Virus record (IMG/VR): IMGVR_UViG_3300049846_000815
Location: 1 to 33,462 of that record
Source of the DNA: a virus
Direction: 5' to 3' (one strand)
Length of the DNA: 33,462 bases
In this document: positions 1,507-33,060 of the stretch, piece by piece
Position numbering within the stretch: position 1 is the stretch's first letter
How the letters are laid out: the number at the start of each line of letters is the position of its first letter
The notes under the pieces: generated by a model
What the model saw: only the letters and a program-made list of their open reading frames with translations
Told to the model about the DNA's origin: nothing
Database searches by the model: none
Translations under genes and position numbers: made by a program

Positions 1507-3216
1507 GTGGCAGATAATAGAATAGAACTTGAAATCGTACTAGATGACGGGTCTATTAAAAAAGCTTTTGCCAATATCAAAAAAGAAGCTAAGGAAACTG
1601 GTGATAGCGCGAAAGAGTCATTTAAAGATTTGTTCAAAATTGACGGTTTAGCTGATTTAAATGCTGGCCTATATTTGGCTAAAAAAGCAATACAATCATT
1701 CATTGATTCTATGAATGCATTGAAGACAGCGGCAGCCCAGGGAGAACAATTAAAGGCCGTTGGTCAGAGATTTGAATTAATAGCAAAACAGGCAGGATTA
1801 ATTCCTGATGCCTTGGCTGGAAAAATAGATCTTGCTGTTGGCGATGTTGTTGTTCTTGATGAAGCACTTAAATCAGCGTCAAAGGCCATTATTAATTTGG
1901 GATCTAATGGTAGTAAAATTCCTGAAATATTTGAATTAGCAAGAAAAGTTGCAGTTCAATATGGTGGAGATACCATTGAAAGATTTGAGCAAATTTCATC
2001 TGCAATAGCTTCAGGTAATTTAAAAACATTAAAAGAAATAGGATTAAAAACAGACGCTACAAAAGTAATCAAAGAGTATGCCGAAGCTCACGGTGAATCG
2101 GCTGATAATATTGGTGAACTTAGAAGACAACAAATTTTATTAGAGGCAGTTTTATCAAGAGGAAATACGGCATTTAAAAATGTAACTGAATCAACTACAC
2201 CATTAACTACAGCATTAGAAAAAAATAAGACTGCATGGGGTGAGTTAAAAGATATAATAGATACTGCAATCAACAATACTCTTGGATCTTCACTTAAGGC
2301 AGCGACTGAAGGAACAACAAGATTTCTTGGTGAGCTTACTGTTAAAATAAAAAAAGCATTTACAACTGAAACGATAACAGCAAAAGACAACATAATTCAA
2401 TTAAGAGAACAGATTGACAATCTAACGAGATCAATTCAATTAAATGAAGTTCGCGGATTTCCTACAGAAAATCTAACAAAAGAATTAGAGGAAAAGCGCA
2501 AGTTGCTTGCGGCAAATGAAAAGCTAGAGCAACAAAGAATTAATACAATCTCAAGCAGAAAAACACTTAGTAATGAAACAGATAAAAACACAGAAGCAAT
2601 AATTAAACAGAATGAAGCAATTCAAAACGCGACAGTAACAAACGAAAAATTTAATAATGGTTTTTCAAATACAATAAAAGATATGACCAACGGATCTAAG
2701 TTGATTTCTGGAATAGCAACAACTGCCGTTAATGGATTAACAAATGCTTTTGCTGCTTTTGGTGGTGCTTTGGTTACTGGTAAAAACGCATTCGCTGAAT
2801 TTGGAAAAGGCATTCTAAAAACTATTGGTCAATTGGCTATAATGATAGGTCAATTCATGGTTTTGGTTGGTATTGCATTTGAATCTGTAAGTTTTTTAGG
2901 TTTTCAGGGCGCTGGCGCTATCGCGGCTGGTTTAGGATTGATTGTTCTTGGTGGTGCGCTTCAAGCAATTGGTGGGGCTTCTGGAACAGCCGGAACTGCA
3001 GATGCTGTTGGTGGTGGTGTTGGTGCGGGTTCATCTAGTATTGCAAACACAGATTTAACTGAACCACAACAATTACAGAGAGAAGTTGGAACAACAGTGA
3101 ATCTAACTGTTCAGGGTGATATTTTCGACAGCGATGCTACGGGTGGAAGAATTGTAAATTTATTAAACGATGCTTTCGATAAGAATGGTGTTGTTGTTAG
3201 AGGGGCTACCGCATAA
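1507..3216 (+). CDS. Tape measure protein
   Basis: A 569-residue protein with GTG start directly after the chaperone stop. Tape measures fix tail length and are ejected ahead of the DNA. Visible signs are charged, helical coiled-coil-like stretches at about residues 270-375 and a long Gly/Ala-rich hydrophobic region with probable membrane-spanning helices at about 400-495. The last 60 residues look like a separate beta segment. By the usual rule of about 1.5 angstrom per residue it would specify a fairly short tail, near 85 nm. Its stop overlaps the next start (TAATG), so translation is probably coupled. Confidence 0.85.
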   Translation: MADNRIELEIVLDDGSIKKAFANIKKEAKETGDSAKESFKDLFKIDGLADLNAGLYLAKKAIQSFIDSMNALKTAAAQGEQLKAVGQRFELIAKQAGLIPDALAGKIDLAVGDVVVLDEALKSASKAIINLGSNGSKIPEIFELARKVAVQYGGDTIERFEQISSAIASGNLKTLKEIGLKTDATKVIKEYAEAHGESADNIGELRRQQILLEAVLSRGNTAFKNVTESTTPLTTALEKNKTAWGELKDIIDTAINNTLGSSLKAATEGTTRFLGELTVKIKKAFTTETITAKDNIIQLREQIDNLTRSIQLNEVRGFPTENLTKELEEKRKLLAANEKLEQQRINTISSRKTLSNETDKNTEAIIKQNEAIQNATVTNEKFNNGFSNTIKDMTNGSKLISGIATTAVNGLTNAFAAFGGALVTGKNAFAEFGKGILKTIGQLAIMIGQFMVLVGIAFESVSFLGFQGAGAIAAGLGLIVLGGALQAIGGASGTAGTADAVGGGVGAGSSSIANTDLTEPQQLQREVGTTVNLTVQGDIFDSDATGGRIVNLLNDAFDKNGVVVRGATA

Positions 3217-3995: not shown

Positions 3996-6898
3996 GTGTA
4001 CTTAACGGACAAAAAGCGAACCAAAACACATTCAACAATGCCTTTGTTAGCAAGACAGCAACGACTGGAAACAATGTCACTGGGATTATTGGTTTAAATA
4101 ATGGCGGATCTGGTCCAGCAATAACAAACGTTCAACAAGAGATTAACGACAAGATTGATTCAAGTGAAAAGGGTGCTCCGAACGGAGTTGCTGAGCTTGA
4201 TGGAACTGGCAAGGTTCCTTCTGCTCAATTGCCTTCTTATGTAGACGATGTTTTAGAGTACGCCGATCTCGCATCATTTCCCGTGAGTGGTGAGACCGGA
4301 AAAATTTATATCGCTATCGACACAAGTAAAGCCTATCGATGGACTGGCTCAATTTATTATGAAGTTTCACCGTCTGAGGTCACTAGCGTCTTTGGAAGAA
4401 CTGGCGCGGTTACCGCTCAATCTGGTGATTACACAACAACTCAAGTTACCGAGGGAACGAATCTTTATTTTACCGATACGAGAGCTCGTACTGCCGCTGT
4501 TGAAGATACTATCGTTGATGGCGTTACGAATAGGGCACCATCTCAAAACGCTGTCTTCGATGCTCTTGCGACAAAACAGGATACTGGAAACTACATCACG
4601 GCTTTGACTGGGGACGTGGCGGCTAGTGGGCCAGGAAGCGCCACTGCTACTATTCAAGCCGATTCGGTGAGCAATTCTAAACTCGCTAACATGGCGACTC
4701 AGACGATTAAGGGCCGGACTACTGCTGGAACGGGAGATCCTGAAGATTTAACGGCTACACAGGCTACGGCTATTTTAGACAATTTCGTGGGGGATTCTGG
4801 AAGTGGGGGCACAAAGGGATTGGTTGTTGCTCCCGCTGCCGGAGATGCAACAAAGTTTTTAAGAGGCGATGCCACATGGCAGACAGTAACAAGCGGAGGC
4901 GGCGGAGGTTCTAAAAATTATTTATCTACTGTTAATGGTGTAAATGGAAATGGTGATTTTGAATTAGGCACTACGAGCAAATGGTCTTTGTTCAACACTA
5001 CTTTGACAAGTTTGATTCCTACGGGTGCTATATCATCAGGGGCCGCTTCTGTAACGACATTTAACACGGTTTCTAGTGGACAACTTGCCGGGACATATTC
5101 GCTTCAAACCGCATCAAGTGGCGCATGGTCTGCCGGACAAGGTTTCATCACAGACGCATTCACAATTGATTCAGAAGACAAAGCCAAAGTAATTACATTT
5201 AAGGCTTATTATTCTGCTATTTCTGGATCATCAAATATCAATTTTTCTGGCACGAGTTCAAATACATTCGCAATTTATGTTTATGACGTTACAAATTCGG
5301 CATGGATTCAACCTGCAGGTGTTTACGGAATAAATCAATCCAGCGGCGCGGGTTACGTTACTGGTACTTTTCAAACAACTTCAAACTCTACTCAATATCG
5401 TCTCGCAGTATTGGCAGTAAATGCATCAGCTGGTGCTGTGACAATGTACTGGGATGATTTTAGTTTCGGTCCTGAAACATCACCAATTGGTGTCCCTGCT
5501 AAGGATCTAGCCTTATTATCAGTTACCGCAACATCATTAATTGCAGCTACGACTACGAACCCAACTTTTGGGACTACTTCAGTTAATCGAGTTTTAGCTG
5601 GTAGAATCGCTGACCGTGGACTTGTTAAGTATGAGATTATTTATACATCAGCGGGTACGGCTGGGTCAGGTGACTATTTATTTTCCCTTCCATCGGGGTA
5701 TTCTTTCGATCCTAACTTTGTAACATATTACACAACCGTAGAGGGTTCCGGTGACTTCTCATTTAGGGGTAGTATTGTTGGTAAAGCTGGTGGGGATTTC
5801 CAAGGTAACGCCGATTTTAACGGTTTTTGTGTTGCTTATGATGCGACTAGATTTAGAATTTTTCAGCAACAAATAGCGACTGCCACTGCATCCAATGGCG
5901 TTGTAAGTTCAGCTACATTCGCGCCCGTTGGTACTTCAGGATCTTACTGGTGCGAAATTGATGCAAAAATGGCTGGATGGTCAGCTAATGTTCAAATGTC
6001 GAATGATACAGACACTAGGGTTGTTGCTTGTTACGCAGCCAGAACAACAACACAGTCAATCCCAAACAACACAGAAACAACAATAATTTTTAATAGCGTA
6101 TCATTTGATACACACGGTTCATATAATAATAGCACTGGAACTTACACTGCTTTTGTTTCTGGATATTATCAAATTGAGGCGCTTGTAGAATTTGACGGAA
6201 ATGCTACTGGACAAAGGTACATACACGTTTATAAAAATGGTACGACCAAGTTTAATCTTGCGTATGCTGGAAATCTTGCGACGGTAGCAACCATTCCTAC
6301 AGGATCAACTACAATACAATTAAACGCGGGTGATACTTTTGTAATACAAGGTTTTCAAAATAGTGGTGGGGCTTTAAATATTGGGTCTAATGGAAATCAA
6401 TACAATCATTTCAGTGTGTTTAAACTTTCAGGGCCATCGGTAATAGCTGCTAGTGAAACAGTTACGGCATCTTATGTGAGAACAACAACTCAAACGATCA
6501 CGAACGCTGCCGCTGATAATACAATGATTTATGATTCTAAGTTAGATGATTCCCACGGTGGGATGAATACATCTAATGGTAGATATTCGATACCAGTTTC
6601 GGGTAAGTATTTAATTGACGCAAGTGTATTTTATACTTCTTTCACTCCTGCATCCGGTAACGTATTCGGGATGAGATTTATAAGGAGAAATTCTTCTGGT
6701 ACTTCTTTACAAGATTTTTATAAGGATGTTTTCACTTGCGCTTCCACTCAAACCTTAGAAGTTAGCAATAGAGCATTCCACCATTTCAGATGCAACGCTG
6801 GTGACACACTTGAAGTCGTTGTTTATCAAACGAGTTCAGCATCAAGAACCACAATCGCTAATATAAATTTTGTTAATATTGCAAAGGTAGGAAATTAA
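3992..6898 (+). CDS. Tail fibre with CBM-like and two C1q-like domains
   Basis: A 968-residue receptor-binding candidate, TTG start overlapping the previous stop. Residues 1-300 form a fibrous shaft with the widespread fibre motif SVFGRTGAVTAQSGDY followed by NLYFTDTRAR. A Gly-rich hinge (about 302-307) leads to a jelly-roll, carbohydrate-binding-module-like domain at about 308-495 (contains NGDFELGTTSKW and ends near MYWDDFSFGP). A further beta domain covers about 500-660. Two C1q/TNF-like tip domains follow, at about 675-816 and 822-968, each with a GxY...VSGxYxI pattern and a later GDT segment. The modules suggest trimeric attachment to cell-surface glycans. Confidence 0.8.
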   Translation: MSVLNGQKANQNTFNNAFVSKTATTGNNVTGIIGLNNGGSGPAITNVQQEINDKIDSSEKGAPNGVAELDGTGKVPSAQLPSYVDDVLEYADLASFPVSGETGKIYIAIDTSKAYRWTGSIYYEVSPSEVTSVFGRTGAVTAQSGDYTTTQVTEGTNLYFTDTRARTAAVEDTIVDGVTNRAPSQNAVFDALATKQDTGNYITALTGDVAASGPGSATATIQADSVSNSKLANMATQTIKGRTTAGTGDPEDLTATQATAILDNFVGDSGSGGTKGLVVAPAAGDATKFLRGDATWQTVTSGGGGGSKNYLSTVNGVNGNGDFELGTTSKWSLFNTTLTSLIPTGAISSGAASVTTFNTVSSGQLAGTYSLQTASSGAWSAGQGFITDAFTIDSEDKAKVITFKAYYSAISGSSNINFSGTSSNTFAIYVYDVTNSAWIQPAGVYGINQSSGAGYVTGTFQTTSNSTQYRLAVLAVNASAGAVTMYWDDFSFGPETSPIGVPAKDLALLSVTATSLIAATTTNPTFGTTSVNRVLAGRIADRGLVKYEIIYTSAGTAGSGDYLFSLPSGYSFDPNFVTYYTTVEGSGDFSFRGSIVGKAGGDFQGNADFNGFCVAYDATRFRIFQQQIATATASNGVVSSATFAPVGTSGSYWCEIDAKMAGWSANVQMSNDTDTRVVACYAARTTTQSIPNNTETTIIFNSVSFDTHGSYNNSTGTYTAFVSGYYQIEALVEFDGNATGQRYIHVYKNGTTKFNLAYAGNLATVATIPTGSTTIQLNAGDTFVIQGFQNSGGALNIGSNGNQYNHFSVFKLSGPSVIAASETVTASYVRTTTQTITNAAADNTMIYDSKLDDSHGGMNTSNGRYSIPVSGKYLIDASVFYTSFTPASGNVFGMRFIRRNSSGTSLQDFYKDVFTCASTQTLEVSNRAFHHFRCNAGDTLEVVVYQTSSASRTTIANINFVNIAKVGN

Positions 6899-6901
6899 TC
6901 T

Positions 6902-7192
6902 ATGGCAACATATTCGAGCAACACGACAATAAAAATTCAAACAGCTATTTCAAATTCAACTACATCTGGAACACTTTATACATGTCCAGCAAATTCTTAT
7001 GCGATTGTTCAAGTATCTTACAATGGAAATTCTGCTGATGTTCTTAGTATTGGTGGACAAGATTTAGTAAAGAGTGGAAACAGCGGGCAGTTTACTGGAA
7101 TTTATGTAGGACCGGGACAGGCTGTTATATATATGCCAAACATATCAGGAACTGGAAAAATTTCTGGAGTAGAATTTAAAAACACGCCATGA
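6902..7192 (+). CDS. Small virion-like beta protein downstream of the fibre
   Basis: A 96-residue protein rich in Ser, Thr, Gly and Asn, with no membrane segment, starting three bases after the fibre stop with AGGAAA upstream. The composition and the ending ISGVEFKNTP resemble small beta-sandwich accessory proteins that sit on fibres or capsids. It could be a fibre cap or a chaperone. I do not recognise a named family. Its stop overlaps the next gene by four bases. Confidence 0.6.
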   Translation: MATYSSNTTIKIQTAISNSTTSGTLYTCPANSYAIVQVSYNGNSADVLSIGGQDLVKSGNSGQFTGIYVGPGQAVIYMPNISGTGKISGVEFKNTP

Positions 7193-7563
7193 TTGATTGG
7201 TTCAATGAATCTCAAACGATTTTAGGATTAGTCGGAGTGATCATTGGATGCTCTTCATGGTTAGTTAAAAAAGCTTTTGATTCGCATAATGAGTTGATGC
7301 TAACAAAACTTGAAAATCTTGAGGGGTTTATGAGTAATGCTAGTTTCGATATTAACGATTCAAAAAACAGACTTCATTCGATTGAAAAAGATCTCGCGGT
7401 TTCAAAAACTGAAACTAGCGGTATGTTCATTCGTATTGAAGAAATACTAAAAATGATCCGCTTAGAATCTGCCAAAAGTATGGATAGAATAGAATCACTA
7501 GAAGCCCATGCCTTTGTCAGAGCAAAAGCGGTAAATAAGAAAAGGAAAAAAGATCATGTTTGA
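7189..7563 (+). CDS. One-pass membrane protein with coiled coil; candidate holin
   Basis: A 124-residue protein with one hydrophobic helix at about residues 11-28 (TILGLVGVIIGCSSWLV), then a long charged helical/coiled-coil region to a basic C end (KKRKKDHV). This architecture is like XhlA-type holin-associated proteins. The gene opens a cassette that leads to spanins and endolysin, so a role in membrane permeabilisation fits. Start ATGA overlaps the previous gene; the stop overlaps the next gene by eight bases. A structural membrane anchor is an alternative. Confidence 0.5.
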   Translation: MIDWFNESQTILGLVGVIIGCSSWLVKKAFDSHNELMLTKLENLEGFMSNASFDINDSKNRLHSIEKDLAVSKTETSGMFIRIEEILKMIRLESAKSMDRIESLEAHAFVRAKAVNKKRKKDHV

Positions 7564-7777
7564 TTTAGAACATAAGATGAAATACGAAGCTGGTAATATT
7601 TCTTTCGTTGTTGACGTTAAGAATGAAGCTGGCGAAATCGTTGGTTACAACCACACTTCAATCAGTGCTGTAATGGCGATCAAAGCTATTATTGAAGCTT
7701 CACCAACTAAGGTAGATGATATTCTTTTGCCTTACCTAGAAACTCTTTCTAAACTTATTCCATCCAAGGAAGTTTAG
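7556..7777 (+). CDS. Hypothetical protein of the lysis cassette
   Basis: A 73-residue acidic protein starting with MFDLEHKMKYEAG, with no membrane helix and no motif I recognise. The N-terminal half looks like a short beta hairpin sheet and the C-terminal half like helices. It overlaps the candidate holin gene by eight bases, so it is probably translationally coupled to it. Function unknown. Confidence 0.65.
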   Translation: MFDLEHKMKYEAGNISFVVDVKNEAGEIVGYNHTSISAVMAIKAIIEASPTKVDDILLPYLETLSKLIPSKEV

Positions 7778-7781
7778 ACCG

Positions 7782-7826
7782 ATGAGCGCGATTAAATTAT
7801 TCCAGCTAGGAGATTTCCTTCCATGA
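7782..7826 (+). CDS. 14-codon upstream ORF (possible coupling leader)
   Basis: ATG at 7782 begins a 14-residue ORF (MSAIKLFQLGDFLP), with AAGGA 11 bases upstream, that stops at TGA 7824-7826, overlapping the ATG at 7823 as ATGA. Its last codons run through the left arm of the hairpin that hides the next gene's ribosome binding site. Ribosomes translating it would melt that hairpin. No homology can be claimed for such a short peptide; the arrangement is the evidence. Confidence 0.45.
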   Translation: MSAIKLFQLGDFLP

Positions 7827-7841
7827 ACTTTCTTAGCTGGA
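7801..7841 (+). promoter_or_regulatory. RBS-sequestering hairpin in front of the spanin genes
   Basis: TCCAGCTAGGAGA (7801-7813) pairs with TTTCTTAGCTGGA (7829-7841) over 13 consecutive pairs, two of them G-U. The left arm contains the Shine-Dalgarno AGGAGA; the 15-base loop contains the ATG at 7823. In the folded state the site is buried, giving a translational off state, as in the lambda S start region. The control role is inferred. Confidence 0.65.
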
Positions 7842-8059
7842 TCGCGTCTATTTTCATTGAAAAATTCATCAAGTATTTTTGGATTAAAGTCAGCGAACTT
7901 ACTAAGCATGTGATTGATGAGATTAAATTATCTAAGCTTAAAAAAATTGATGAACAAAATGCAGAAAAATATAATAAGGTGATCACAAGTGACAAAGCCA
8001 CTGAAGAAGAAATCATTAAAGCCACTACTGACCTGCTTAATGGCAGTGACAATAAGTAG
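7823..8059 (+). CDS. Probable inner-membrane spanin (Rz-like)
   Basis: A 78-residue protein with a hydrophobic/amphipathic N-terminal segment (about residues 3-23, FLSWIASIFIEKF and following) and a highly charged helical remainder. The start of a lipoprotein gene lies inside its 3' end in a different frame, the arrangement seen in Rz/Rz1 pairs. It would link the inner membrane to the o-spanin and help fuse the envelope membranes at the end of lysis. The membrane segment contains charged residues, so a peripheral membrane protein or a pinholin-like protein is possible. Its start lies in the loop of a strong hairpin. Confidence 0.5.
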   Translation: MNFLSWIASIFIEKFIKYFWIKVSELTKHVIDEIKLSKLKKIDEQNAEKYNKVITSDKATEEEIIKATTDLLNGSDNK

Positions 8060-8342
8060 TTGTGGAAGCACTCCAGTACCTCCAAAACCAATTTTATACG
8101 TTCCGATTATTGACAGGACAGTTTGCTCTGGGTCTGATTGCGTTATCAAAAATGAATGTCATGAGTATCATGTTGTTGGAAATTCTATTCCGGCGGTTTA
8201 CGAGTTCTACGCTTTTCATCCGTTAAAAAAGTGTGATGGAATTTTTGGAGTTGATGCTAATGATTTAGTTCAGATTAAAGATTATACTAGAAGGCTTAGA
8301 AAATATATTGAGGGATTGCAAGCCAATCAATGCTTTGAATGA
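7989..8342 (+). CDS. Outer-membrane lipoprotein spanin (Rz1-like)
   Basis: A 117-residue protein with GTG start, beginning inside the preceding gene in another frame. It has a lipoprotein signal peptide: basic n-region (KPLKKKSLK), hydrophobic stretch LLTCLMAVTIS and lipobox ending at Cys25 (ISSC-GS). The mature part has a Pro-rich start (TPVPPKP) like many o-spanins, then several cysteines (VCSGSDC, NEC, KKCDG) and the segment CDGIFGVDANDLVQIKDY. It predicts a Gram-negative host. It is longer than classical Rz1. Its stop overlaps the endolysin start (ATGA). Confidence 0.7.
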   Translation: MTKPLKKKSLKPLLTCLMAVTISSCGSTPVPPKPILYVPIIDRTVCSGSDCVIKNECHEYHVVGNSIPAVYEFYAFHPLKKCDGIFGVDANDLVQIKDYTRRLRKYIEGLQANQCFE

Positions 8343-8827
8343 GTGATGAAGAAATAAAGACAAAGGTTAGTGGGCTTAAGGTTATTGAAGATGCTGGAAA
8401 TCTTCCAAGATGGATGACATTTGCAATCAAAGAGCTAGGTCAAAAAGAAATTGTAGGCAATCAACATAATCCTCGCATTTTGGAATATCATAAAACGACT
8501 TCTCTAAAAGCTAATAATGATGAAACAGCATGGTGTAGTAGTTTTGTTAATTGGTGTTTGAAGCAAGCATTCATTAAGGGTACTGGCAGAGCCAATGCGA
8601 GATCATGGCTTGATTGGGGTTACCCTTGTTCTGATAATGTTTTAGGTTCAATAGTAGTGATGACAAGAGGTGATAATCCAGCTAATGGTCATGTGGGGTT
8701 CTTGGCTGGTTTCGATGATACTAGCGTCTACATTCTAAGTGGAAATCAGGATAATATGGTTAAGTACAAAAAGTTTGACCGTTCTATTGTACTTGATTAC
8801 AGATGGCCATTTTGGGGGTTAGAATAA
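8339..8827 (+). CDS. Endolysin, TIGR02594-type cysteine peptidase
   Basis: A 162-residue protein matching the TIGR02594 pattern: PRWMTFAIKELGQKEI near the N end, NPRILEYH, DETAWCSSFVNWCL, ARSWLDWG, GHVGFLAGF and LSGNQDNMV. The likely papain/CHAP-type catalytic set is Cys66, His118 and Asn136. It should cleave peptidoglycan peptide bonds. There is no signal peptide, so release depends on a holin. It directly follows the o-spanin gene, which favours host lysis over a virion role. However, a tail hub gene follows four bases later, so a tail-associated lysin is possible. Confidence 0.8.
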   Translation: MSDEEIKTKVSGLKVIEDAGNLPRWMTFAIKELGQKEIVGNQHNPRILEYHKTTSLKANNDETAWCSSFVNWCLKQAFIKGTGRANARSWLDWGYPCSDNVLGSIVVMTRGDNPANGHVGFLAGFDDTSVYILSGNQDNMVKYKKFDRSIVLDYRWPFWGLE

Positions 8828-14660: not shown

Positions 14661-14702
14661 TCAAATAAAAACGCCCCACCAGAGTGCAGCTAGTGAGGCG
14701 TT
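14661..14702 (-). terminator. Intrinsic terminator in the leader of the replication operon
   Basis: On the - strand AACGCCTCACTAG (14702-14690) pairs with CTGGTGGGGCGTT (14682-14670) over 13 bp (two G-U) around a seven-base loop, followed by a T-rich run TTTTTATTTGA (14671-14661). It lies 20-60 bases upstream of the initiator start and just downstream of a TATAAT box. No - strand gene precedes it for many kb, so it probably acts as an attenuator or guards against distant antisense transcription. Confidence 0.7.
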
Positions 14703-14721
14703 CTTGCGATTGGTTTTACTC

Positions 14722-16437: not shown

Positions 16438-16707
16438 GTGAATTGTTTCGTTTGCAATACAGAAATCGGCAAGCAGGTTCTTCAGCAACCAATTAAGTGT
16501 GAAGGCCGAATCCTTCCGGCGCATTTCAATTGCGGAATCGAATGGTCTGAGAAGGAACTTGAGGTTTTTAAGATCACGTTTGGAAATTCATACTACACGC
16601 TCACTCCCGATTTTGATGGGATGGAGGTCGGAGATGTTTTTGAGGTCGAAAAGGTTTTGATGAAACAAGGAGAATTTTATGCGTTGCCAGAATTTCAAGG
16701 GTTCTAA
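16438..16707 (+). CDS. Hypothetical protein with N-terminal cysteine cluster
   Basis: An 89-residue protein, GTG start with GAGGAGCGA upstream. Cysteines at 3, 6, 21 and about 32 with a nearby His (NCFVCN, KCEGR, AHFNCG) could bind zinc. The C-terminal part is acidic (DFDGMEVGDVFEVEKV). No family was recognised. Its position after another Cys-rich protein suggests a group of small host-interacting proteins. Confidence 0.6.
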   Translation: MNCFVCNTEIGKQVLQQPIKCEGRILPAHFNCGIEWSEKELEVFKITFGNSYYTLTPDFDGMEVGDVFEVEKVLMKQGEFYALPEFQGF

Positions 16708-16736
16708 CAACCCCCGCTTTGATGCGGCGGAGTTTA

Positions 16737-16750
16737 GGGAGGATGGATGA
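16737..16750 (+). repeat. Ribosome-binding cassette GGGAGGATGGATGA, copy 1
   Basis: A 14-base sequence containing a Shine-Dalgarno core and the start of the following gene (ATG 16747). An identical copy lies at 16984-16997. Upstream, CCGC-TTTGAT-GCGG forms a small hairpin in the gap between the two genes. Confidence 0.6.
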
Positions 16751-16947
16751 AGGTTAGAACACTAATTGAAGAGTTGAGTAAATTAAACGGCGATCTTGAT
16801 TTGATTTTGCAAATTGATCAGGAAGGCAATGGATACGAAGAGGTTAGAGGCATCGAAGAATGCAGTTTCGATGGTGATAGCGCGCTTCACCCAGATGACC
16901 TTGAAGAAGGTGTTGAATATGAGAAAAGGGCGGTGATTTACCCATGA
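16747..16947 (+). CDS. Small acidic phage protein
   Basis: A 66-residue acidic protein beginning MKVRTLIEELSKLNGDLDLI, a start seen in many small phage early proteins in which a helix is followed by a beta strand carrying acidic residues. No catalytic motif. GGGAGG is spaced four bases before the ATG. Function unknown. Confidence 0.65.
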   Translation: MKVRTLIEELSKLNGDLDLILQIDQEGNGYEEVRGIEECSFDGDSALHPDDLEEGVEYEKRAVIYP

Positions 16948-16983
16948 CCCCGCGCCGCTATTCCGTTTGGTCAAATTTGTTTC

Positions 16984-16997
16984 GGGAGGATGGATGA
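16984..16997 (+). repeat. Ribosome-binding cassette GGGAGGATGGATGA, copy 2
   Basis: Identical to 16737-16750. Here the ATG that is correctly spaced from GGGAGG (16994) opens only a six-codon frame (MSLWVI), so the cassette has been copied without keeping the gene in frame. The next gene probably starts at 17002 or by coupling. Confidence 0.6.
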
Positions 16998-18033: not shown

Positions 18034-18429
18034 GTGAGTAAAAGAGAATGTGACTGGTATGGAACTGAACTTTTTAAATCAATAAAAGGCATGACATTTT
18101 CGAGCATCGAAAAAATCGGGAATTATGAAATAAAGTTTACAGAGTACAGTGGGCGTAAATTTATGATGAGTTGTTATGATGATTGCCGCGCTTCTTGTAC
18201 TATTGATGAGGTCCACGGTGACCTGTCTGATTTAGTTGGGTCTCCTATTTTGTTGGCTGAAGAAGTTGTTAGCAGAGAAAATCCTGAAGGTGTCACCAAA
18301 GGATATCAAGATAGCTTCACTTGGACTTTTTACAAATTAGCCACAATCAAAGGCTCAGTAACCATTCGCTGGTATGGCGAATCGAATGGGTACTATTCTG
18401 AGTCCGTAACATTTGAGGAATTAAAATGA
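18034..18429 (+). CDS. DUF7448-like phage protein
   Basis: A 131-residue protein, GTG start with TTAGGAGATTC upstream. The family pattern is clear: YDDCRASCTIDEVHGDLSDL, VGSPILLAEE and near the end TWTFYKLATIKGSVTIRW followed by YGESNGYYSE. Function is unknown, but the strong conservation of the last block suggests a defined fold. It overlaps the next gene as ATGA. Confidence 0.8.
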   Translation: MSKRECDWYGTELFKSIKGMTFSSIEKIGNYEIKFTEYSGRKFMMSCYDDCRASCTIDEVHGDLSDLVGSPILLAEEVVSRENPEGVTKGYQDSFTWTFYKLATIKGSVTIRWYGESNGYYSESVTFEELK

Positions 18430-18551
18430 GCAAGTTACCAGGAAGAATCGGAAAATGTGTGCTCTGTAAGAAACGTAGAAAGACAGCCCTCATTGTTGTT
18501 TTTGGCTTAACCATTCGATCATGTTTTAAATGCTGGGAGTATAAAAAATGA
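18426..18551 (+). CDS. 41-residue zinc-ribbon microprotein
   Basis: Coupled by ATGA at both ends (18426 and 18548). The product has two CxxC knuckles, KCVLCKK and SCFKCWE, separated by a basic, hydrophobic beta hairpin (RRKTALIVVFGLTIR), the minimal layout of a zinc ribbon. Too small for usual gene finders but well supported by the Cys pattern and junctions. Probably binds nucleic acid or a host protein. Confidence 0.6.
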   Translation: MSKLPGRIGKCVLCKKRRKTALIVVFGLTIRSCFKCWEYKK

Positions 18552-19021
18552 GCACAGACGAAAAGCGACCGAGAGAATGGAAAGCATTTGTTCAAGATGA
18601 ATCTCTTTTTGGGCATGAGAATATGACCGAGGCTCACATTCGTGCGCTTAAAATAAACCAGCCGATAATCACAGTGCGCGAAGTCCTCCCAGGCAATCAA
18701 GGCATCGAATGTGGTCCTTATGGAACTGCGGGAGGAACTTTCACTCCAAAACCAGGCAGGAGCGACACGGAGAGACTGGATTGGATGATAAAAACGGAGT
18801 ACAGAATTGTGGAGATTACTAAGGGAATATTTTATTTTAAAATCGGAGGTGGAATTTTTGAAGCAAAATCACCACGCGGAGCCATCGACGCGGCAATGGA
18901 CCAGGAGAGGCCAACCACATTAGCACAACTACCAATTCACGCATGTGATCGAGCCCCAGATGCTTCAGCAACATTAACCACCAATAGCAAATGCCCATAC
19001 TGTGGCGGAGGCATCCTATGA
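18548..19021 (+). CDS. Hypothetical early protein with C-terminal cysteine knuckle
   Basis: A 157-residue protein. The N part (MSTDEKRPREWKAFVQDESL) is charged; a central segment RLDWMIKTEYRIVEITKGIF is followed by FEAKSPRGAIDAAMDQ, resembling small phage helper proteins. The end contains KCPYCGGGIL, a rubredoxin-type knuckle. The family was not recognised. It starts and ends in ATGA overlaps. Confidence 0.65.
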   Translation: MSTDEKRPREWKAFVQDESLFGHENMTEAHIRALKINQPIITVREVLPGNQGIECGPYGTAGGTFTPKPGRSDTERLDWMIKTEYRIVEITKGIFYFKIGGGIFEAKSPRGAIDAAMDQERPTTLAQLPIHACDRAPDASATLTTNSKCPYCGGGIL

Positions 19022-19077
19022 CCCACGCACCATCATGCTTAATTTATATTTGCTCTTGCGGAGGTAAGAAGAAGTGA
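19018..19077 (+). CDS. 19-residue Cys-containing microprotein
   Basis: Lies between ATGA (19018) and GTGA (19074) overlaps and encodes MTHAPSCLIYICSCGGKKK. Its last codons contain GGAGGTAAGAAGAA, the ribosome binding site of the next gene. It may be a coupling ORF rather than a functional peptide. Confidence 0.3.
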   Translation: MTHAPSCLIYICSCGGKKK

Positions 19078-22706: not shown

Positions 22707-23103
22707 AGAAAAAATCAATGGAAGGCCATCTAAATACAAACAAGAATACGATAAATTGCTAGTTGATCACATGGCTAGTGGCCTTAGTTATCTTTCATTT
22801 GCGGCAGTAGTTAACGTGAACGAGGACACTCTTTATGAATGGGAAAAAGTACACCCAAGCTTTTCCGAAGCCAAAAGGGACGGTTTTAGTCGGAATAGGC
22901 TTTTCTGGGAAAAGCTAGGCGTGGATTATATTACCCATCAAGATTCTAAATTCGGATCATCACCAAAGTTGAACAGCACGGTTTGGATTTTTAATATGAA
23001 GAACAGATTTCCTAGAGAATGGCGAGACCGAGTTGAAGTCGCTGAGACAAAAGCACCAAAATCTTTTAATGTAAAATACGAACGCAAAAATAAAAAAGAA
23101 TGA
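22699..23103 (+). CDS. terS: Terminase small subunit
   Basis: A 134-residue protein with a helix-turn-helix N-terminal domain (GRPSKYKQEYDKLLVDHMAS, then FAAVVNVNEDTLYEWEK), followed by HPSFSEAKRDGFSRNRLFWE and a C-terminal basic tail. These are hallmarks of small terminases that recognise the packaging site and stimulate the large subunit. It overlaps TerL by four bases (ATGA). The cognate pac or cos site may lie in or near this gene. Confidence 0.8.
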   Translation: MAEEKINGRPSKYKQEYDKLLVDHMASGLSYLSFAAVVNVNEDTLYEWEKVHPSFSEAKRDGFSRNRLFWEKLGVDYITHQDSKFGSSPKLNSTVWIFNMKNRFPREWRDRVEVAETKAPKSFNVKYERKNKKE

Positions 23104-24467
23104 GTGAACAGAATAGATCAACGCCGAGCTATTTTGATTTCAACCCTAATTTTATTCCTTATCAGATAGAAGTTTTAGATTCATTAGACGCTTATGATTA
23201 TTCTCAAGGACTTCATGAAGTTTTATTGTCTGGCAGTGTTGGATCGGCGAAGTCGATTCTATGTGCTCATGCGGCAGTAAGACACTGCATCGAGAATGAT
23301 CAAGCGAGATTCATTATCGGCAGAAGAACACTACCAGACATTAAAAAAACAATGTTTCAAATGATCGTCGAGCATCTTGAGTGCGATGAACTTGAAGAGG
23401 GTAGAGATTATTTCTTAAGAGAAAACACTGCAGAAGTATTCTTTAGAAATGGTTCAGAGATAGTTCCTTATTACTGGGCAGATAAAAAGTTTAAGCGTGT
23501 GAGATCGGTGAATGCGAGCTCTGGTTGGATTGAGGAGTTAACCGAGAACGATGAAAAGGATTCTAAGGCATTCTTTGAAATGAAGGCTCGTCTTGGACGA
23601 TTAAAGATAAAAGAGAAGTTCCTTTTGTGTTCAACTAACCCAGATTCTCCGGCTCACTGGGCGCATAAATACTTCATCGAAGGATCTAAAACATCAAATA
23701 CAAGGCACGTTTTTTATTCTAAAACGAGAGATAATCCATTCTTAGATCCAAGTTACATTAGACAGCTCGAGGAAGATCTAGACCCTAAAGAAGCAAGACG
23801 ATTAATTCATGGCGAATGGGTAGAAATTAATTCAGATAGAATTTATAGCCAATATGACTCAGAAAAGAATTACATTAATAAACCATACACAATTAAACGA
23901 GGTCACCCAATAGCTCTTTGCTTTGACTTTAATATCGGTCACGGGAAGCCTATGTCATCATGTGCTTTGCAAAGCGATGATAAGGAGTTTCATATATTTA
24001 ATGAGGTAGTCATCGAAGGAGCGAGAACTGAAGAGATCATGGATGAATGGTTTGAAAAAGGAATCTTTAACCATGGATCTAAAATATTAATTTACGGCGA
24101 TGCGTCGGGAAGAGCTAGGGATACTAGAAACATTCGATCTGATTACGATATTATCGAAAATTACCTTAAAAGAATTCAAGGTCTTAAATATGAAATGCGA
24201 GTTCCTCGAGATAATCCTGCAGTGAGAACAAGGCATAATCTGGTTAATGCGTATTGCTTAAACGAGGCCGGAGAGCGTCGCCTGTTTGTTTACAAAGATG
24301 CGAAGGTGACTCATGATGGAATGAGGCTAACAAGCTTGAAGCCTGGGGGAAATTATATTGAGGACGATTCAAAGCCTTATCAACATGTTACCACTGCGCT
24401 CGGATACTGTGTTGTTTACGAACACCATAATAGAAAGTTACAACCTATTTCAAACCAAAGAAGGTAA
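23100..24467 (+). CDS. terL: Terminase large subunit
   Basis: A 455-residue packaging motor. ATPase: Walker A GSVGSAKS at residues 45-52, Walker B-like GWIEELTE around 142-149, and coupling motif CSTNPDSP at about 177-184. Nuclease: Asp276 (ALCFDFN) and Asp334 (IYGDASG), with a further acidic residue near the C end (EDDSKPYQH). The order and spacing are those of headful or cos terminases. It cuts concatemers and drives DNA through the portal encoded next. The circular closure of the window fits terminal redundancy, but the cutting mode is not shown. Confidence 0.9.
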   Translation: MSEQNRSTPSYFDFNPNFIPYQIEVLDSLDAYDYSQGLHEVLLSGSVGSAKSILCAHAAVRHCIENDQARFIIGRRTLPDIKKTMFQMIVEHLECDELEEGRDYFLRENTAEVFFRNGSEIVPYYWADKKFKRVRSVNASSGWIEELTENDEKDSKAFFEMKARLGRLKIKEKFLLCSTNPDSPAHWAHKYFIEGSKTSNTRHVFYSKTRDNPFLDPSYIRQLEEDLDPKEARRLIHGEWVEINSDRIYSQYDSEKNYINKPYTIKRGHPIALCFDFNIGHGKPMSSCALQSDDKEFHIFNEVVIEGARTEEIMDEWFEKGIFNHGSKILIYGDASGRARDTRNIRSDYDIIENYLKRIQGLKYEMRVPRDNPAVRTRHNLVNAYCLNEAGERRLFVYKDAKVTHDGMRLTSLKPGGNYIEDDSKPYQHVTTALGYCVVYEHHNRKLQPISNQRR

Positions 24468-31839: not shown

Positions 31840-32353
31840 GTTTAAGACTGGTGATGTCGCATTCGTAATTCATCACGAGAACATTATTAGTAAAATCATT
31901 GCATGGTTTATGAAGTCTAAATGGTCTCATTCTGCCGTTGTTTACGGATCAATGGGAGATAAGACTTTCGTATGTGAAACGTCTGATTTTGAGGTCGTGA
32001 TCAATAATCTCGATAGATATTTAAATGATCCAAGATGCTCAGTTGAAGTATACAGAAAGCCTTTAACACTTGATGACGCTGTCCTCATTCAAAAGAACTC
32101 TGACCAAATATGCGGAGTAATTTACGGATACCTGCAACTTATATCGCTTGGCATTAGAAGAATATTTAAACTTAAGATCAAAAACTTTTTTAAACAGGGC
32201 TTAGTTTGTTGCCACGTTATCTCTTATGCTTATGATGGAATAAGGGGCACTGGTTTTGAAAACTTAGAGCCAGAGTCATTTGATACCGAAGAGCTTTATC
32301 AAATTATTAAAAGCAGCGGTTGGGAAATGATTCATAAAAAGGATGGCAAATAA
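31832..32353 (+). CDS. Permuted papain-like (NlpC/P60, YiiX-type) peptidase
   Basis: A 173-residue protein with the order His33 (KWSHSAVVYG), Glu49 (CETSDF) and Cys126 or Cys127 (GLVCCHVISYAYD), which is the circularly permuted NlpC/P60 (LRAT/YiiX) active site. These enzymes cut peptide or amide bonds, often in cell walls or lipids. Here the gene lies between capsid-associated and connector genes, so the enzyme is likely packaged or acts in virion assembly. It overlaps both neighbours, by eight and one bases. Confidence 0.65.
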   Translation: MSEFKTGDVAFVIHHENIISKIIAWFMKSKWSHSAVVYGSMGDKTFVCETSDFEVVINNLDRYLNDPRCSVEVYRKPLTLDDAVLIQKNSDQICGVIYGYLQLISLGIRRIFKLKIKNFFKQGLVCCHVISYAYDGIRGTGFENLEPESFDTEELYQIIKSSGWEMIHKKDGK

Positions 32354-33060
32354 TGGCTATTTTTGGAGTTTTAGAGTTAGAGGATGTGGTTCAGGTTGGC
32401 GATAAGACGCGATTGTCTGGAGTTAAATCATTCGTAAGTAAGGATGAGGCGGCGATCACATTAGTAAGAATTAAGCCTGAATCAACTGGTTCCTTTGTAA
32501 CGGTTTCAGGGGTGTCTTTGACTTATAAAGATTGGTACTTGGATTGGTCTTATGCGACTAGCGGAACCAAAACAGTGACTATTGAAATTACAGCAGGATC
32601 AGTTCAGACGTTCACGAGAAATATTGAAGTTGTTTCAGAGGCAGACGATAAATTGCTTTCAAAGGATGCTGACTTGATTGCTTATGAGCCAGATATTCTA
32701 AAGTGGGTTCCATCCGGAAGGAGCTCATTTTTAAATCTGCATCGCGCTTCACAAAGATTAATATTAGACTGGTTAGATTCAATTCGTATCTGGCGTAATG
32801 ACGGGACGAAATTGACCAAGGATGATATTTCGGTCACGGATGACCTCAAACAACTGAGCGCATTTTTGACCTTAGAAATGATTTTCTTTGGATTATCTAA
32901 CAAGGTTGATGACACATTTCTTCAGAAGGCAAAGCTATATTATAGCAGAGCCGAAGGGGTTAAGAATCGTGGAAGGATTCAGGCCGATTTCAACGGAGAT
33001 GGAGATTTAGATTCTGGTGAGAATGAGGACATGAAGTCGTTTAAGTTGGTGCGCGGATGA
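32353..33060 (+). CDS. Head-tail connector protein with EF-hand-like loop
   Basis: A 235-residue protein. The N-terminal half looks like an Ig-like beta sandwich (VSGVSLTYKDWYLDWSYATS). The C-terminal half is helical (RASQRLILDWLDSIRIWRND, then LKQLSAFLTLEMIFFGLS), as in gp6/gp15-type head-tail adaptors. Residues about 212-223 are DFNGDGDLDSGE, a perfect EF-hand loop. It is one base downstream of the peptidase and overlaps the tail terminator by four bases. Calcium could stabilise the connector. Confidence 0.6.
   Translation: MAIFGVLELEDVVQVGDKTRLSGVKSFVSKDEAAITLVRIKPESTGSFVTVSGVSLTYKDWYLDWSYATSGTKTVTIEITAGSVQTFTRNIEVVSEADDKLLSKDADLIAYEPDILKWVPSGRSSFLNLHRASQRLILDWLDSIRIWRNDGTKLTKDDISVTDDLKQLSAFLTLEMIFFGLSNKVDDTFLQKAKLYYSRAEGVKNRGRIQADFNGDGDLDSGENEDMKSFKLVRG

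Follow-up and report, generated by a model that had tools for sequence, protein, structure and literature searches.

A hairpin-buried start and an overlapping 14-codon ORF in a tailed-phage genome: a candidate case of translational coupling

The gene run ahead of the CHAP gene

The window, i.e., the whole stretch of DNA analyzed, is the 33,462-base IMG/VR virus record IMGVR_UViG_3300049846_000815, and it carries the genome of an uncultured tailed phage. The ORF at 1507-3216 is tape-measure-like, with a weak match in Pfam (E 0.0024), and the gene encoding the terminase large subunit is at 23100-24467. A terminator-like stem of 16 bp, with a U run at the end of its 3' arm, is located on the minus strand at 14667-14705, at the edge of a minus-strand gene block.

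Ahead of a CHAP-domain gene there is a run of small ORFs of 96 aa (6902-7192), 124 aa (7189-7563), and 73 aa, followed by an ORF of 78 aa and by a 117-aa lipoprotein ORF. Between 6902 and 8342 all neighbors overlap or nearly abut, with the sole exception of a 45-nt gap between the 73-aa and the 78-aa ORFs, and this gap is filled by a hairpin and a mini-ORF. The features of the locus are the following:

7556-7777, plus strand: 73-aa ORF; stop TAG at 7775-7777, 4 nt ahead of the mini-ORF; codon score 0.437 bits/codon, the highest among the frames compared
7748-7778, plus strand: weaker hairpin, 7748-7755 pairing with 7771-7778 and 7759-7761 with 7768-7770 (8+3 bp), -9.0 kcal/mol
7766-7772, plus strand: SD AAGGAAG of the mini-ORF, 9 nt ahead of ATG 7782; anti-SD duplex -5.5 kcal/mol; unpaired probability 0.29 (partly paired)
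7782-7826, plus strand: 14-codon mini-ORF MSAIKLFQLGDFLP; its TGA at 7824-7826 overlaps the next start as ATGA (4 nt)
7786-7791, plus strand: outer stem extension, 5' arm; 6 pairs with 7842-7847
7792-7800, plus strand: A/U-rich 9-nt bulge separating the outer from the inner stem
7801-7813, plus strand: main stem, 5' arm; holds the SD of the 78-aa ORF
7808-7813, plus strand: SD AGGAGA of the 78-aa ORF, wholly in the 5' arm, 9 nt ahead of ATG 7823; unpaired probability 0.007; opening cost 10.5 kcal/mol
7823-7825, plus strand: ATG start of the 78-aa ORF, in the 15-nt hairpin loop; unpaired probability 0.66
7823-8059, plus strand: 78-aa ORF behind the hairpin; predicted helical, amphipathic aromatic N-terminus
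7829-7841, plus strand: main stem, 3' arm, inside codons 3-7 of the 78-aa ORF
7842-7847, plus strand: outer stem extension, 3' arm; pairs with 7786-7791
7989-8342, plus strand: 117-aa lipoprotein ORF, putative o-spanin; lipobox-like TISSC, proline-rich past the Cys; accessible own SD; outside the hairpin
8339-8827, plus strand: CHAP-domain endolysin-like (or tail-lysozyme-like) gene; Pfam PF05257, E 7.9e-9; PHROG 1259; ATGA overlap with the lipoprotein ORF

An SD is weak or missing at the ATGA starts 7189, 8339, and 23100, for which coupling is nearly the only conceivable mode of use. Stop-start overlap appears to be used routinely in this genome, which supports the translation of the mini-ORF, yet also makes this mini-ORF less unusual.

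The 78-aa ORF looks like a gene, judging by its codon score of 0.276 bits/codon in frame (in the part before 7989), the other two frames scoring about 0. Its product showed no significant family match in Pfam, PHROG, or NCBIfam, and the AlphaFold2 single-sequence model consists of two long helices only (pLDDT 74). The hydropathy maximum is 1.23 (19-residue), with charges within the segment, and thus there is no clear transmembrane segment. We have considered this protein as the i-subunit of a two-component spanin, for which neither a clear N-terminal transmembrane segment nor a family match was found. The gene neighbors suggest a role in lysis, but the evidence does not support naming the protein a spanin or a holin.

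The 117-aa ORF carries its TISSC lipobox-like motif as recognized by eye, and the match to the Rz-like spanins of PHROG is very weak (E 0.18). The sequence-only reading had proposed that the hairpin gates spanin or holin synthesis. For the spanin this is not supported, since the putative o-spanin ORF starts at GTG 7989 behind its own accessible SD, the whole 30S site is cheap to open (5.2 kcal/mol), and this start takes no part in the stem; thus, the hairpin would not gate the 117-aa ORF directly. Ribosomes on the 78-aa ORF cross the start of the 117-aa ORF.

The hairpin and its departure from chance

The main stem is formed by TCCAGCTAGGAGA (7801-7813) and TTTCTTAGCTGGA (7829-7841), which make 13 uninterrupted pairs, 2 of them G-U. 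The sequence-only reading had described this pairing, the burial of AGGAGA, and the position of the ATG in the loop, and every coordinate holds; the mini-ORF ending as ATGA on the 7823 start was likewise given correctly, base for base. Two elements had been overlooked. The first one is the outer extension beyond the 9-nt bulge, which takes the local structure to -26.7 kcal/mol. The second one is the weaker hairpin at 7748-7778, which spans the stop of the 73-aa ORF and part of the mini-ORF SD; it is marginal, since 133 of 5000 synonymous randomizations fold as well (p = 0.027). In the nascent RNA, the full main stem is possible only after 7841 has been made.

The 91-nt region has an MFE of -31.6 kcal/mol versus -16.6 +/- 2.8 kcal/mol for its shuffles (z -5.3; none of 200 dinucleotide shuffles reached it). 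The two arms belong to different coding frames, and for this reason we have also used synonymous randomization: with both peptides and the stop-start overlap fixed, only 2 of 48,000 sequences fold as well, and the randomization of one side alone gave 2 of 2000. Within this genome, the start at 7823 has the lowest z by shuffles among 42 starts (-4.95; the runner-up has -2.89), and 1 of 741 background tiles reaches its value. This sole tile, at 32812-32902, has an equally non-random fold (z -5.27) and is located within the ORF 32353-33060.

The SD opening cost is the top among 41 starts and exceeds the 99th percentile of the background positions (9.5 kcal/mol). The opening cost of the whole 30S site at 7823 is unexceptional (13.4 versus a 95th percentile of 15.5), and thus the striking part is the burial of the SD itself. 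The length of the stem is not unique either: the window contains 4 other plus-strand stems of at least 13 pairs, each more G-U-rich. We have dropped the longest-stem count as a measure of chance, since G-U-rich stems of at least 13 pairs are common in the window and appeared in 72 of 3000 synonymous randomizations; folding energy was the measure used. The main stem is not a chance fold, and this observation is statistically solid.

A direct repeat (83% over 18 nt) joins 7790-7807 and 7921-7938. Its copies are read in the same frame, the one in the mini-ORF as AIKLFQL and the one in the 78-aa ORF as EIKLSKL; it is probably due to chance, given that the region also contains an exact repeat of 13 nt with comparable weight.

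A non-random stem might serve the message rather than the start. RNase III sites and 3'-end barriers of this type are found between genes of T7-like phages, and a stem of about 19 bp is within the range used by RNase III. The interrupted 13+6 bp stem, with about 19 bp in total over two segments, could in this way act in mRNA processing or stability within the late transcript. However, it sits across a start site, its 3' arm is coding, and an Rfam search of the element gave nothing at the gathering score; we regard this function as improbable.

The stem could also form, together with the following UCUAUUUU, an intrinsic terminator that would end transcription unless ribosomes on the mini-ORF prevent the folding. 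There is indeed a U-rich stretch after the outer stem, but the U tract is broken by C and A, so that the combination of a GC-rich stem and a direct U run is missing. The element is absent from the terminator scan, which allows loops of 3-8 nt only. Moreover, the lipoprotein and CHAP genes lie downstream, and promoter-like sites in the region are no commoner than in shuffles. Termination at this point is thus most improbable.

The mini-ORF and the proposed coupling

The order of SD (7766-7772), ORF (7782-7826), second SD (7808-7813), and ATGA stop-start overlap is that of a leader cistron of the bicistronic-design type. The codon score of the mini-ORF is +0.27 bits in frame, a value of little weight for 13 codons only. 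Among the non-start ATGA sites of this genome, 8 of 237 (3.4%) have by chance an equally good SD-bearing mini-ORF. The mini-peptide is probably without a function of its own. A -1 frameshift from the mini-ORF into the frame of the 78-aa ORF was considered and dropped, because no slippery heptamer can be read ahead of the TGA.

The best explanation of the element, and in our judgment a reasonably probable one, is translational coupling, in which the stem is opened by a ribosome translating the mini-ORF, and this ribosome then reinitiates at 7823. Several observations agree with what coupling calls for: the downstream start overlaps the upstream stop by 4 nt (ATGA 7823-7826), the RBS is hidden by a structure beyond chance (SD unpaired probability 0.007; 2/48,000), and, in the folding model with ribosome footprints, the upstream ribosome releases the RBS. 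The hairpin structure and the ORF geometry are read or computed directly, and from them we infer the control of expression.

In the free mRNA, the computed stem hides the SD of the 78-aa ORF, and ribosomes could then not load directly. They would load at the mini-ORF SD or continue from the 73-aa gene, which ends only 4 nt before the mini-ORF. A ribosome would then read all 14 codons, crossing the 5' arm, and terminate at TGA 7824-7826, as the geometry allows. The terminating ribosome may hold the stem open, sit on the overlapping ATG, and reinitiate with the freed AGGAGA, a release that appears in the modeling. As a result, the synthesis of the 78-aa protein would be tied to the flow of ribosomes from the upstream late mRNA.

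That translation of the mini-ORF opens the stem had been proposed from the sequence, and the footprint foldings bear this out in part: with the ribosome at codons 1-3 the SD is still paired, and it becomes free when the ribosome stands at codon 4 or anywhere beyond, up to the stop. With a ribosome at the stop of the 73-aa gene only, the second SD is still buried in the model, while the first SD and its ATG are freed. These foldings predict a relay in which translation of the 73-aa gene assists the mini-ORF, and translation of the mini-ORF in turn exposes the 78-aa start. Since a ribosome positioned to open the stem sits on the SD as well, only reinitiation, or very fast loading, could use this SD. 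In the model, reinitiation by the same ribosome via the overlapping ATGA would be the likeliest route.

A stricter form of the relay can be envisaged, in which the terminating ribosomes of the 73-aa gene would open the first hairpin, with the mini-ORF SD, and those of the mini-ORF the second and stronger one; the 78-aa protein would then be made only on ribosome-trafficked messages, and the Pro-UGA end would set the dwell time. We consider this full two-stage scheme rather improbable.

The stem might instead act alone, lowering or delaying the synthesis of the 78-aa protein by repression at its start, the mini-ORF being an accidental frame without any role. The partial pairing of the mini-ORF SD is in line with this, as is the frequency of chance mini-ORFs, which is the one given above for the ATGA sites of this genome and 3.6% for the ORF starts of other phages. 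However, this mini-ORF occupies the sole long gap of the gene run, with a well-spaced SD and an exact 4-nt overlap, and with no opener a stem this costly to open at the SD (10.5 kcal/mol) would leave the gene almost silent. Thus, repression by the stem alone appears unlikely.

The end of the mini-ORF raises the question of attenuation by a stalling leader peptide, similar to TnaC or erm, where a pause at the C-terminal Pro-UGA would set the time during which the stem is open. The Pro-TGA context slows termination, and a ribosome paused at this point would cover both the SD and the start. But the mini-ORF carries no known arrest motif, and such a ribosome would block, rather than help, initiation at 7823, making attenuation very improbable.

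Taken as a purpose-built switch, as the sequence-only reading had it, the element retains the non-random stem that buries the SD and the mini-ORF with a well-placed SD; the part that named spanin or holin as its target lacks support, given an ORF of 78 aa without family match and with a hydropathy maximum of 1.23. If translational coupling is the true mechanism, the element would be a compact natural equivalent, at the beginning of the phage lysis region, of what has been engineered as bicistronic designs and hairpin couplers, and a phage could employ a non-functional 14-codon cistron purely as the opener of a buried start. It would also suggest that gene finders dropping very short ORFs conceal part of late-operon control. 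The understanding of translational coupling itself would be unchanged.

Four other mini-ORFs of this genome end on or beside gene starts. The one at 19018-19077 is a 19-codon ORF (MTHAPSCLIYICSCGGKKK, followed by its stop) whose first codon overlaps the stop of an ORF that ends at 19021 and whose stop overlaps the GTG start at 19074, by 4 nt in each case; its SD has -9.5 kcal/mol. The one at 18426-18551 is probably a small gene (41 aa, rich in Cys and Lys) that joins two genes via 4-nt overlaps at both ends. Those at 16679-16750 (23 codons) and 16944-16997 (17 codons) both end in REDG and a stop, and this shared end is due to an identical SD/start string, GGGAGGATGGATGA, ahead of two different genes.

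Known systems, relatives, and base rates

The start region of lambda S, a lysis-cassette gene, is structured, and its stem-loop determines how the two starts of this gene are used relative to each other. The present element is likewise a structured start in a lysis cassette, but lambda S has no mini-ORF gate of this kind and here there is no second start; lambda S, which had been offered as the analogous case, is a weaker analogy. In the mok-hok system of plasmid R1, a small upstream ORF is translation-coupled to a small membrane-acting protein. Unlike here, hok is under the antisense Sok RNA and the refolding of its mRNA, neither of which is seen at this element. Antisense control of mok in plasmid R1 has been described (PMC8309996).

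A review of 2025 covers both models of coupling as well as downstream starts masked by hairpins, including f1 VII/IX and MS2 coat-lysis, and describes short ORFs that may serve only to deliver a ribosome (PMC12548453). The VII-IX pair of phage f1 shares with the present element a 4-nt stop-start overlap and a predicted long hairpin that bars independent downstream initiation (PMC12548453). In f1, however, a true gene rather than a 14-codon ORF serves as the upstream cistron, and the hairpin is already closed before gene IX is reached, whereas here the SD is in the stem and the ATG in the loop. In the MS2 coat-lysis pair, RNA structure hides the lysis start and ribosomes terminating upstream expose it, as proposed here (PMC12548453), but the two MS2 genes overlap by 50 nt, and it is the coat gene that acts as opener.

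The engineered systems are close as well. The BCD leader has a first cistron of less than 20 aa with its own SD, carries the SD2 in the 3' end of this cistron, and leads into the second start; it was devised so that ribosomes can pass inhibitory structure (PMC5995908). It differs from the present element in being engineered and in having no designed stem around SD2. In synTCE, the RBS is in a hairpin, the stop and start codons overlap, and upstream translation opens the hairpin; stems of at least 6 bp suppressed direct initiation (PMC11602170). That design is engineered with a 6-bp stem, unlike the natural 13+6 bp found here.

The architecture is already known, and the element is to be placed as a natural example of translational coupling, not as a new mechanism. 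The combined micro-ORF gate had been considered unusual, a view that we cannot maintain: coupling by a short ORF and an RBS hairpin has been both described and engineered (PMC12548453, PMC11602170), and this genome contains the four other mini-ORFs mentioned above.

We have searched for relatives of the region by protein scans of viral contigs (78-aa, CHAP, 73-aa, 912-aa, 968-aa, and TerL proteins) and of genome contigs (912-aa and TerL proteins), and by DNA and protein searches of phage records, and none was found in these scans and searches. The protein scans gave only CHAP homologues in unrelated neighborhoods (L002-L004) and one tail-fiber homologue (L005), and all of these have only single genes in common with the window. 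Searches of viral contigs with a degenerate mini-peptide pattern and with a stem pattern gave no match.

The viral contig L005 encodes at 5001-6824 a tail-fiber-like homologue with 70% identity (best stretch of about 200 residues), and its lysis region differs. The gene order there is loosely similar, with a coiled-coil protein, an amphipathic protein, and a lipoprotein; the protein similarity in that region is very weak (a phmmer search of three sequences gave E 0.0028 at best, with the 124-aa protein), and the corresponding start is without special fold (z +0.8). L005 was therefore rejected as a partner for covariation, its similarity being too weak and its fold not unusual.

As a base rate, we have used 250 SD-bearing ORF starts, picked mechanically and not curated, from 8 other phage sequences (L002 and L004-L010). 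In 7 of these starts (2.8%), opening the SD costs 10.4 kcal/mol or more, and 9 of the 250 have an overlapping mini-ORF of 8-40 codons. The buried SD and the overlapping mini-ORF were found together in none of the 250, even at the 9 kcal/mol level. With each feature present at about 3% of starts, the combination is uncommon and would be expected now and then.

One of the buried starts in this set belongs to Edwardsiella phage eiAU (L010, position 30367), in the second of two adjacent annotated holin genes; its SD has an opening cost of 10.4 kcal/mol, and it lies 2 nt past the stop of the first gene.
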